64,000 nt of DNA, taken from NCBI RefSeq assembly GCF_002234675.1, contig NC_019881.2, forward strand, positions 15,423,825-15,487,824, given 5' to 3'. A program made the position numbers and the translations under genes. Below are positions 3,701 through 18,700 of this stretch, piece after piece. A model generated the notes under the pieces. The model was not told the DNA's origin, searched no databases, and worked only from the letters and a program-made list of their open reading frames with translations. Every line of letters starts with the position of its first letter. Within the stretch, counting starts at the first letter, position 1. Source of the DNA: Oryzias latipes. Its lineage: Eukaryota; Chordata; Actinopteri; Beloniformes; Adrianichthyidae.

Positions 3701-6700
3701 TTTCTTTTTTATTTAATGTGAATAACTTATCCTGATTCTCAAATAGGATAATCATCCGTCCATTTTCGATCTTATTATTCAGGAGCAATTTTCAATAATG
3801 ACATGTTCTTTACATATTTCACAGTAGCTCTGTCAAATTTTAGAAGAAAATGACCCAATGACACGTAATTTTAAGTGATAATCCCCCTTTTTGGTTTTCA
3901 TCTAATGTCATAGTTAAACCACATTTATTTTTATGTCAGGCTGGCAAAAAAAAAATGTTGACACTGACAAACATCAATGCGTGTGGAAGGAACATTCTAC
4001 AAAATATCTACATTTCTTTTTTTCCCCCAGTAGTTCTCTCTCTGGTTTTTGCATTTTACCTCACCAGTTTCTAAAATCCCTTCATTTTGTCTTGTTTATT
4101 GTGTCCCTGGGATATAATTTATTTTAAGGATTTCAAAATAGTTTTTGGTGATGCATAAATAAACTCCAAATATTTAAATCCAGTTCTATTTTATTACATT
4201 TGGAACTGTTTTAATGTAAATGTGCAGCAGAGCATGTTTATAATGTGTATCAGGTTTTAAATGTTTTCATTTTTGACAAAAGCGTGGAGAAAAGGGTGAC
4301 CAAGGTGGGGTTGGAATCATTGGAAGGCCTGGAATACCAGGATCTCCAGTAAGTATACTTTAGTTGTATAATATTATCATTACAGTCCAACATAATTGCA
4401 TGAATTTAAACTGTGGGATTGCACACATTAATTTTACCCTAATCTTTAGAAAAAATACATAAATAAATACCGATTAAAGAAGAAATTTCCTTTTTTTTGC
4501 AGGGGAAACCTGGTGTTGATGGGAAAAGAGGTATACCAGGAGTCAATGTAAGGAAATAAGATATTTTATTTGATATTTAAAAATATATATATAAAAAATA
4601 TATATGTATATTTTAAAAAATATTTTTTTCAGGGAGAGAAAGGATTCAAAGGAGATGAAGGAAAAAGGGTCTGCTAACTGTCTTCATTATCCTATTGCTT
4701 TAGATTGTTTTGTCCGTGCTTTAACTTTCTTCTTTGTTGAAGGGGGACAAGGGAGAAGCAGGTGCAAATGTAAGACCTTTTTAAAGGTACAAAACAATTA
4801 AGTCCATTTTGCAACTTTTAAACTGAAATTATAAGTGAGCACTGCTCTCTCTCTCTCTCTTTTGTTTTTACTTTTGTAGGGTAAAGATGGAAGCAAAGGG
4901 GAACCTGGACCTCCAGGTTTACCTGGTAGCCAAGTGCTTGTCACTCCTGAGGTAAATATAATATTTTGTCTTTATATTCAGGGATGTAGATGTTTTATGG
5001 TTTCTTTCAATGGTTTTAATTCCCACCCTGAACATCTTATCTATTGTTAAAGCGTTATCAGTGGTATTTTTAAAATGATTATGCCTTGTTTAGGCAACAT
5101 GATAAAACCTGTGTTGTTTTTTTAGGACATTGTTGCTGCAGAGCGGCAGTAATAAATTAGAATTTCACCTCTGATTTGTGGGCGGGATTGATGGCACGGA
5201 GTAAGCCAACCCCACTTCCGGTCATCTCATACTAGCTTACAGCCCCTCACAACCCCACAACAATCCACCTGTACAGTTTTGAGACAGATGCTAGCTAGGA
5301 CGAGAAAATTGAAGACGTATATGGATCTATATATGTCTGCAAGTGAATGCATCAGAATTGAGCGGAGCCTGCCCATTATAGCCTAATTAAGAATAAAGAA
5401 CAAATAAATACTCCAAAATGCAATTTTTAGCTTAATTGTCTTTAAATATGTTTTCCATCATGAGAAAAACGCCTAAAGAACGTGTAAAAAACACCAAAAA
5501 CACAATTTTCATCAGACTGGGTCTTTAAAAGAAAACCTTTCCTGATATTTCAAACCCATTTTTTTAGAAGAAACATTTGCAACAGCATCGATCAAATTAC
5601 TAGTCACGTACTTTATGTATCTAGCTCTGTGCAATAAACAGGTACCAAATGAAAATGGAGAACTTGTACATTTTGTAAAAATGTTTTATTTTGATGTGAC
5701 TGTTGTCAGGGAGCCACGATGGATGAAATCCGAAAAGCTTTTCCAATGCCAATGGGTCCTCCGGGCGCAACTGTGAGTTCACTATTTATACACAACATGT
5801 TTCTTCCTGTGGCATCTATTGCTCATAAATATTCACTTCTACTGTTGCACAGCATAATTCATATGCTACCTGCGTGAAATCTGAGTCATCATCTGGTTAA
5901 GACTTCAACACTTTATCATGCTTACAACAGGCTGTGAATAGACACTAAATGGGCACATTTGACGTCATGCATTTTAAATGCATGTTCCAATGCATTCCTC
6001 TTTTGTTCCTGTGTTTAGGGAGCACCAGGAATGAAGGTAAGATGGTTGAGATACTTATAACACATGTGGGTTTTAAAATGAAAATGAATGCAGCAACATA
6101 ATACAGACATTAGGGTTATTTTTTCTTTTCTTTTTTTTTTTTGCAGGGAGAGAAAGGAGAAAGGGGCCAGAGAGGGGAGAAGGTAGTGACAGATGATTGT
6201 TGTAAATACAAAATAGGAAAGGGGCAATTACATTTGTTCATACCATTTCCATTTCTTGCAGGGTGATGCTGGAGCTCCTGGAAAATCTCTTGAGATGAAG
6301 GTTGAATACATATTATCCTAATTACATTGTCATTTCATATGCATGAATCCTTAATCAACACATTTTGCTTTAACTTTAGGACATTGAAGAAATGTTTGAA
6401 GCTTATGGAATAAGGGTGAGCTCTTACAAAGACCATTTTTACATTAGGGTGACAGATTTCCATTGCGAGTAGCAGACTTTGACTATCTTTTTCTTCAGCT
6501 GCCTTTGCTGAAGGCTTTGATTGACAGGTTGCTGCAGGACGGGATAGAGGAGCTGCTCCACGTGCTTATCCCCGCCAAGAAAATCAAAGAGAAAGAAACA
6601 CACACCAACGTCATCTCTGACTACACTGTATGTATCATCTGCAGAGCGTCCAAATTTAAAATACTTTACCCGTGCCTTCACCCTTCTGCCTTTGGGATAT

Positions 6701-15700: not shown

Positions 15701-18700
15701 CACACAGATTGAGAAAAATCTCATTTGATCAAAGAAAAGCTGTATTTTGTGTGTTTTAGGTGTCTATGCCAGGTGCTCTGGGTGGGAGACACCAGTATAA
15801 GGAGGCAGATAAAGTAATTTTTCTCTTTTTCTGGGTATATCTGTGTTTTAAAAATTCATGTTATAAAACATGGAAATGCAATTCCGTAGTCCATGTGGAC
15901 CGAATGTGAGATTCTTTGCCTTCTTGGATTTCAGCGTCTCTCCTCTGGAGCTCGAGGTTACAATAGTTGGAGAGTAAGTTCTTTTTTCTTTTTTTTTCCA
16001 GTCAGCTTTGCAGAATCTAAGGATGTCTAACTTGTAAATTCAGATTCAGATGTAAATTCAGATTAATTTGACATATGCTGATGGATATTTCTTTTCCAGA
16101 GCGTAATGCAGGCAAAGTTTCCAAGTCACATCAGAAGGAGTGAAGAAAGACAGGAATACAGTGATGGAGACAGAGAGATTCATACAGAGGAAAAGGCAGA
16201 AGACAATGATGGAGCAATGGCAGGTGGTTACACAACTCCTGATCCAGCCCTTGAGGAAGAGGAAAGGAGTGGAGACTATGACTGGGGAACAGAGGAAGAT
16301 TTGGACCGTGAAAGGGAAGAGGAAGATGGGGATCTGGAGAGGAAACGAGAGAGGGAAAGGTTGGAGATGGAAAGAGAAAGAGAAGAGCTGGAGAGGGAAA
16401 CTGAATTAGAGAAGGAGCGAGAGCAAACAGAGGAGGAGGAGGAAGAGTGGGAGAGGAGAAGAGCAGAGATGGAGAGAGGTGGGGATAGGGTCTACGATGA
16501 AGAAACTGGACAACCATATCCATATCCACCACAATACTTTTTTCTCAAGGTAAGAGCCTGAGATCCAGACCTCATTATGTTTGTGCAGTGAAACAATTTA
16601 TGTTCTTATTGGAAACTTTGGAAACCCTCTGCACCGCCGTGAGGTTTTCCCAAAAATCATACACGTTCAGCCACAGGTCAACTTTGAAATCAACCCATCT
16701 GATAGCGGCCCAAACAACCACCCAGCTGCCTCCGTGATAGGAGCCACGCTTGAAGTTGCTCCCTTGTGCCCTTTAGAAATTCAGCCACCACTAGACACTG
16801 AGTTGACTTGTTTATGAAACTAAAATATTTTTGAACCAATCAAGTTCCAGTCAGAAAATCTAGTTGGCCAAAAGAAAACTGATTGCTAGAAAAAAAAAAG
16901 GTCTCTAAAGTCTTTACTTCTCTTTGGACCCGAATCCTTATCCCCCCGCTTGTTGCTCGCACGGAAAACATGTAAAATAGTTTAATTCTCTGAATAACTT
17001 TTAACTTTTCAGCAAGAATTGAATATTTCCCTAAAGCCTAATTACCTGAAATTATTAAGCTGCCTAATGGCTGTGCACATCCCATTCTAAAAGAACAATC
17101 ATTTAGAGCATCATCCTCCACTACACAAATTAATTTCACCTGAAGATAATTATATCAAATGGTTTAGACGAATCAAACTCACTGGATTAATTTAATGTTT
17201 GTGTTCAAAATACAAGATTTAGTGGTAGTGTTTTTTAAAGACCCACTTTTGCAAATGTTCTTATTGCATGTTTTACATTATAGAGCATAAATATCACCAA
17301 AACTAAGCCTAAAATTGTATTTCAGAATATTTCTTTATTTTGTTAGCTCCAATATTGCTTTCAATTTTTGTTGCACCTCTAATATTAAGTTGGAGGGTTA
17401 GAAAGACCGTGTAAACAGATGGATGATAGGAAGTGGGGGTGTGGTTACTCTGCATATACAATCCTGCCCGTAACTCAGAGGCAAATTTCGAATGAACTAC
17501 TCTGCAGAAACTATGTCCTCGAAAACTACACAGGTTTTTTTTTTATTTTGATTAAAAATAGCATGAGTATAATTAAAAGACCACTGGGATCTGTTTGAAA
17601 ATAGATCAAAAGTTGATTGAAGTTTAATGAAAACTGTTTGATCCATGTTTCTTTTGTTAAAGGGACAACCAGGTGAAAATGGGCAACCTGGAGAAAAGGT
17701 AAAGGCCGATGCTATTTCTAAAATAAGCATTTAACAGACTCCTAAAAAGCACCACCAAAAGCAGTTGTCATTTTTATAATCTTTTAGCTCCCTTATTTGT
17801 TTTAGCTGATAGTTTTGTTTTTTTAGATACACTCGAAGAGTTTGTTTCAATAATGACTAATAAGAGTTTTACTAACGAAGTTATAAAGGAAGATTTGTGA
17901 CATTTCTTTCTTTTTTTTAGATTTCAATGAAACTCATCCTTGTATCATAATTTACTGAGTCATAGATGTTGTCGCAGCAATTACACTGACAGCATCTTTA
18001 TCATCAGTAAGAAGCATAAAGCAAGAATGACAGTCGCCACATGAAATGTGCCATCCCTTCATGAATATACCATGGCTGTTCTGCTGCCTATTCACATAAC
18101 ATCAGTAAATGACATCAGAGCTCAGGGAGAGCTCCTCTCCCGTCTCGCTTGTCAGTAACACCACTCAAGTCCAGGCCTTTGATGTCCCTCTGCTCTATTT
18201 CCGTATGACTTTTAGACAGTAGATTAAAGCAGGCATTAATAATTCCCCTTGTTAAACATGCTGACAAGTCATGTTTTTTTATTTCAAATTCCTCTGAGTT
18301 TGCTTATTCGAGCACATTCAGAAGACACGTCATAGTGATTTATTTATTTTATGTTTCTAACTGCAGTTTTTGTACTTCACAGGGGGAACTTGGCGAAAAG
18401 GGACAAAAGGTAAGAGTGGAGTTATTTGAATTCAGACTTCAATCAGCTGTGTTGATTTGGCTGTTTTGTGTTTCAGGGAGAACCAGGCATTGGTCTCAGA
18501 GGGCCAGAAGGCCAAGCAGGTCCACCAGGACAAAAGGTGAATTAAATTCCCCTTTCCCTGCTCGAAATGCAAAACAGAAGCAACAGATGACTTCAGAGTT
18601 CCTGGAAAAGCAATTAATCCCTGCAGCCTTCTACAACATTCACTTTGATGACGTTGTTTCACATTGGAGTTTTAATTTAGAAGAATTTAATTGGTCCAGT

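Follow-up and report, generated by a model that had tools for sequence, protein, structure and literature searches.

The window considered here, 64,000 nucleotides of the medaka (Oryzias latipes) genome at positions 15423825-15487824 of contig NC_019881.2 (C23 below), carries on its + strand part of a collagen gene in which two Gly-X-Y blocks, one ending at 6300 and the other resuming at 17663, are separated by 16 stop-free exons. All 16 are bounded by AG and GT, begin and end in phase 0, and sum to 1566 nucleotides, or 522 codons, of non-collagenous sequence, which we refer to as the hinge. Judging from the DNA, we consider it likely that this gene, whose 3' part lies in the window, is a divergent collagen VII paralog. 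Its hinge would have expanded from a short one of two exons to 16 exons with about 522 residues, and now probably forms a long flexible linker.

The hinge opens with E1 (6380..6415, + strand as are all exons of the gene), whose 12 residues appear to be ancestral, followed by E2 (6499..6627, 43 residues), of which the first part appears ancestral and the remainder new, and in which a helix is predicted over residues 2-23 with modest confidence. E3 (7245..7343) encodes 33 residues and has a splice score of 19.8, E4 (8538..8738) encodes 67 residues with four N-glycosylation sequons, and E5 (9037..9144, 36 residues) has a basic end, one sequon and weaker splice sites (sum 8.9). The polybasic E6 (9834..9878, 15 residues), with the furin-like motif RQKR, precedes E7 (11399..11470, 24 residues), in which EEYIYDYE forms an acidic tyrosine cluster, the acidic E8 (11844..11900, 19 residues), E9 (12008..12052, 15 residues) and E10 (12193..12264, 24 residues). 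E11 (14017..14070, 18 residues) is rich in proline and threonine, E12 (14414..14464, 17 residues) again has weaker splice sites (sum 9.7), and E13 (15625..15678, 18 residues) carries a furin-like RVKR and the weakest acceptor of the set. E14 (15760..15813, 18 residues) and E15 (15935..15973, 13 residues) lead to E16 (16100..16549), which encodes 150 residues with a net charge of -30 and a predicted charged helix over its residues 65-126. As a separate observation, the intron before E4 contains at 8240-8500 a stretch like a mobile element, resembling one near 3421200 of another contig (C5) and ending, as judged by eye, about 40 bases 5' of E4.

To ask how far this exon set exceeds chance, 37 collagen exons from the window, and none from the hinge, served to train splice matrices. 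The median summed splice score was 14.3 in the hinge exons and 14.3 in the collagen exons. The best phase-0 chain of exons across 6301-17680 reached a score of 82.8 at a penalty of 10. The mean over 60 dinucleotide shuffles was 13.4 (standard deviation 6.7, maximum 33.0), and the reverse strand scored 5.3. Chain exons matched the 16-exon model in 12 of 19 cases at this penalty, and in 12 of 15, 10 of 12 and 9 of 9 at penalties of 12, 13 and 14. The encoded residues also differed from those of 269 AG..GT decoys taken from introns: the 522 hinge residues include no cysteine (decoys, 3.4%), and their hydrophobic fraction was 0.18 compared with 0.37 (p about 1e-8), content p-values that are optimistic because the intronic decoys overlap one another. 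The GC fraction was 0.477 in the hinge exons and 0.346 in the introns. The sequence-only reading had described 16 splice-consistent, phase-0 exons between Gly-X-Y blocks, and as an observation on the DNA this is confirmed.

Several results nevertheless count against taking every exon as modelled. Four of the 16 (E5, E12, E13 and E14) were not exactly recovered in the chains at penalties of 10 and 12; the E13 acceptor scores just 0.3 bits (E13 sum 6.9), and both E5 and E12 have below-average splice scores. For E14 the blind chain used the same acceptor and placed the donor after 15834. Moreover, at a penalty of 12, where the hinge scored 48.3, the length-scaled score was as high as 38.7 in one of the 12 region-strands taken for comparison. 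In outline we take the exon set to be real; its least certain parts are E13, E5, E12 and the end of E14.

These weak points, together with the 7 of 19 chain exons that are not in the model when the penalty is loosest, would also fit an mRNA that joins E2 directly, or nearly so, to 17663, leaving most hinge exons unused and a hinge of about 55 residues. All hinge exons are in phase, and skipping them would therefore keep the reading frame. We regard such pseudo-exons as improbable, given that splice strength in the hinge equals that of the collagen exons, that the chain score lies far above the shuffles, and that absent cysteine and low hydrophobicity set the hinge apart from intronic decoys. 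The multiple-of-three lengths had earlier been read as making many isoforms possible. By themselves they do not argue for this, since the lengths of all 40 collagen exons modelled on both sides of the hinge are likewise multiples of three (32 of 40 are multiples of nine), a count that is partly built in because the exon search accepted in-frame exons only.

A further alternative is that the region produces two transcripts, an upstream one terminating within the hinge and a separate downstream one. A strong acceptor at 14920 (11.2 bits) would extend E12 in phase 0 to a DIS-stop, an AATAAA lies at 14992, and E13, with its weak acceptor, comes right after this candidate. The interval 14920-14997 is a possible alternative last exon, which would end the chain within the hinge, and similar coincidences are common in this stretch: it has 39 AATAAA or ATTAAA hexamers and 14 off-model acceptors above 8 bits (14920 included), so that the pair is unremarkable. 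At E13, the only start tested in the hinge, the frame 5' of the exon opens at 15595 and offers no methionine ahead of it; furthermore, the NC1 and NC2 regions belong to a single collagen VII plan. Two transcripts are thus the least probable of the explanations that we weighed, and a single gene with an expanded hinge is the reading followed below.

This plan can be traced on both sides of the hinge. Within the window, 18 collagen exons were modelled before it (709..6300, the last at 6262-6300; Gly-X-Y with AG/GT borders) and 22 after it (17663..27624, 445 residues). Close to the end of the helix, the collagen exon at 26462-26539 contains a short interruption with a cysteine (GRSKHCQKG), and a run of 22 C occupies 21778-21799, in the intron just 5' of the collagen exon at 21816. 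The post-helix region starts at 27708..27756 (+ strand), within a stop-to-stop frame at 27675-27836, with a sequence that we take to resemble the start of human NC2. It is followed by the Kunitz-domain frame of NC2 at 32172..32375 (+ strand; Pfam PF00014, E 5.9e-18). Upstream of the window, at a distance of 7-11 kb, lie two open reading frames with VWA matches above the Pfam cut-off (2.6e-10 and 1.5e-5) and one FN3-like frame, followed by further Gly-X-Y sequence. Thus, the features of the collagen VII family, namely an NC1 region with VWA and FN3, an interrupted Gly-X-Y helix with a 36-nucleotide hinge exon, and a Kunitz-type NC2, appear to be present in this gene. Speaking less clearly for collagen VII, the FN3-like match falls under the Pfam cut-off, and PDB searches with one VWA piece each from this gene and from its relative on C5 (described below) returned no collagen VII entry; the former piece retrieved collagen VI alpha 3 (two sequences) along with a DUF262 protein, the latter proximal thread matrix protein 1.

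To place the gene within its family, we searched the genome (734 Mb in 25 contigs) for relatives. Among the 60 other Kunitz matches listed, the best was at 3416152 on contig C5 (53% identity), and upstream of it lies a collagen VII gene with a long interrupted helix, whose sequence is presumably nearer to human COL7A1. The VWA and FN3-like frames of the window gene each align with open reading frames at the start of this C5 gene. Its hinge amounts to 38 residues: three that precede the 36-nucleotide exon DVQRALITLGIK (3377981-3378016), those encoded by that exon, and 23 encoded at the start of a 123-nucleotide exon (3378569-3378691). E1 matches the former exon in both its 36-nucleotide length and its position, and E1 together with the first 15 residues of E2 aligns with the C5 hinge at 8 of 27 identical residues. 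Without gaps, this alignment, of a segment picked by eye, scored 28 with BLOSUM62; 20,000 shuffles averaged -24 and never exceeded 26. The new material therefore begins within E2. Sharing had been put at the first segment only in the sequence-only reading, a limit that the alignment into E2 removes.

The two medaka genes thus have in common the position of the hinge between two long Gly-X-Y blocks, as in COL7A1, and a first hinge exon of 36 nucleotides with a similar start. They differ in the remainder. The non-collagenous segment comprises 38 residues in two exons on C5 and 522 residues in 16 exons in the window gene, and the helix that follows is shorter in the latter (445 residues, compared with about 769 on C5, an approximate figure because 41 of 49 chained exons were kept, eight low-scoring ones being dropped, and at least one exon was cut short). 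Human COL7A1 has a hinge of about 39 residues and a second helix of about 800 residues. Both lengths separate the window gene from the C5 gene and from COL7A1, and the window gene is therefore unlikely to be the ortholog of COL7A1. In the medaka genome, the expanded hinge appears limited to the window paralog, leaving one short-hinge and one long-hinge collagen VII. The earlier contrast of 39 human with 522 fish residues consequently compares paralogs. What holds of that proposal is that many phase-0 exons enlarge a hinge of the collagen VII type; the assignment of the gene to COL7A1 itself probably does not.

Considering that the second helix falls short of that in the C5 model by about 320 residues, the additional hinge exons could be former Gly-X-Y exons that have lost their glycines, so that part of the second helix was converted into hinge. 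Exon lengths favour this, with 11 of the 16 divisible by nine (binomial test against one third, p 0.004; a pattern noticed post hoc), compared with 32 of the 40 collagen exons. The sequence does not favour it: no glycine register is left in E3-E16, where 9 of 30 glycines are in register (p 0.74; best-register p 0.34). Decay of collagen exons is accordingly a possible source and no more, and we regard it as rather unlikely. Searches for other relatives of the new exons gave little. E2 matched only itself in the genome, E16 was its own only genome match at E<=0.01, and E4 had no significant second copy, its two matches (E 1.6 and 7.8) containing stops. Of the five exons scanned against Pfam (E2, E3, E4, E5 and E16), none had a family match with an E of 1 or less. 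A comparison of E16 with viral contigs gave 38 pattern matches, among which no relative was confirmed.

The hinge protein is acidic, with 123 acidic, 73 basic and 17 tyrosine residues. Its five N-glycosylation sequons all fall in E4 and E5 (p 0.03 by composition), and the furin-like motifs, in E6 and E13, number two (p 0.04). Acidic tyrosine clusters like that of E7 are often sulfated. AlphaFold placed a helix over residues 65-126 of E16, with block means of its confidence measure pLDDT of 86-98 (residues 61-120), 69 (121-130) and 53-61 elsewhere, and a helix over residues 2-23 of E2 at a pLDDT of about 77. Set against these models are that they come from two single exons run with no alignment, and that the salt-bridge spacing score of the E16 helix did not exceed shuffles (p 0.28); the helix may therefore be a coiled coil, or be unstable as a lone helix. 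Overall, the prediction is of an acidic hinge that is disordered over most of its length and contains a single charged helix of about 62 residues. For human collagen VII, one study describes the hinge as the longest interruption of the helix and as disordered (PMC7137805). As the human hinge is already called disordered, the window hinge would be the same kind of part, much enlarged.

What the sequence shows is the coding plan of a collagen with two rods and a long non-collagenous stretch between them. From the properties above, a mode of operation can be proposed. The chains would trimerise as other collagens do, and the expanded hinge would form a long, acidic, flexible and mostly disordered extracellular linker, with the charged helical stretch placed shortly ahead of the second collagen rod. 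Glycans may be attached to E4 and E5, and tyrosine sulfation is possible on E7. Such a linker might allow each rod to move and to bind partners independently of the other, in the manner of the variable regions of collagens V and XI (COL5A1, COL11A1, COL11A2), which are also non-collagenous and poorly conserved and provide the nearest working model. Disorder and tyrosine sulfation are named in the title of a work cited in PMC7558312. The variable region differs in lying N-terminal to the main helix, whereas the window hinge lies between two long Gly-X-Y blocks. It is also alternatively spliced, as in the case of zebrafish Col11a1a (PMC7558312). Skipping or inclusion of hinge exons and cleavage at the polybasic sites are possible in the window gene; alternative splicing, sulfation and furin cutting of this hinge are offered here as guesses.

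The neighbourhood of the gene bears on its age. About 5.6 kb after the Kunitz frame begins a match to the CRF family, belonging to a urocortin-3-like frame with the core SLDVPTNIMN at 37620-38117 (+ strand), downstream of the collagen gene. Judging by the mature peptide, this neighbour is probably UCN3-like. According to one report, ucn2 and ucn3 stem from vertebrate genome duplications whose timing is debated (PMC9353778). C5 carries another UCN3-like gene, at 30.95 Mb, with a PFKFB gene about 52 kb away. Some 27.5 Mb from it, at 3.4 Mb, is the C5 collagen VII gene, which has a different PFKFB gene at a distance of about 220 kb. In human, the neighbours of COL7A1 on chromosome 3 are UCN2 and PFKFB4, and UCN3 is accompanied by PFKFB3 on chromosome 10. 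Because of this gene order, the human neighbours and the reported history of ucn2 and ucn3, we favour an origin of the window gene in the early-vertebrate (2R) duplications: it is probably a collagen VII duplicate that was retained beside UCN3 and lost in mammals.

Two points limit this dating. It depends on the human gene order, and PFKFB genes, counted irrespective of type, are frequent: they occupy seven sites across the genome, of which three are on C5 and one is on C23 (at 3.1 Mb). The window gene might instead be a fast-evolving, teleost-specific (3R) copy of COL7A1, in line with the UCN3-like gene on C5, through which C5 and C23 have at least one duplicated gene in common. Against a 3R copy, the C5 collagen VII and UCN3-like genes are far apart and each near its own PFKFB gene, which fits the separate human orders of chromosomes 3 and 10, and the window gene stands in a UCN3-type order, although the seven PFKFB places weaken this argument. 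On balance, we hold a teleost-specific copy to be a serious contender but the less probable of the two, and retain the 2R origin.

The remainder of the window contains frames that presumably represent exons of coatomer gamma (41500-50000, + strand), of a MEST-like hydrolase (52000-52750, - strand) and of a plasma-membrane calcium ATPase (56600-63900, - strand). A gene of another fish that bears the name of a collagen VII-like gene is zebrafish col7a1l, a possible ortholog of the window gene. In two reports, col7a1l is listed among retinoic-acid targets (PMC8608873) and is raised in the altered eyes of a transgenic line (PMC9456529). In searches of an open-licence literature library, no listed title or visible abstract dealt with a fish collagen VII whose hinge is enlarged.

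Anchoring fibrils, which hold skin together, have their flexible joint in the hinge of collagen VII. At its most far-reaching, the finding would amount to a second vertebrate collagen VII, left from 2R and absent from mammals, with a 520-residue hinge that is glycosylated, sulfated, differentially spliced and cut at polybasic sites, giving either an anchoring fibril with a joint about 13-fold longer or two released rods. We regard this full picture as a long shot. Independent of it, a natural paralog with an approximately 13-fold longer hinge, existing alongside a short-hinged copy, would offer a ready test of the role of the hinge. If the 2R origin is true, vertebrates once had two collagen VII genes, and this would help to interpret data from fish skin and fins, where 'col7a1' could denote either gene.

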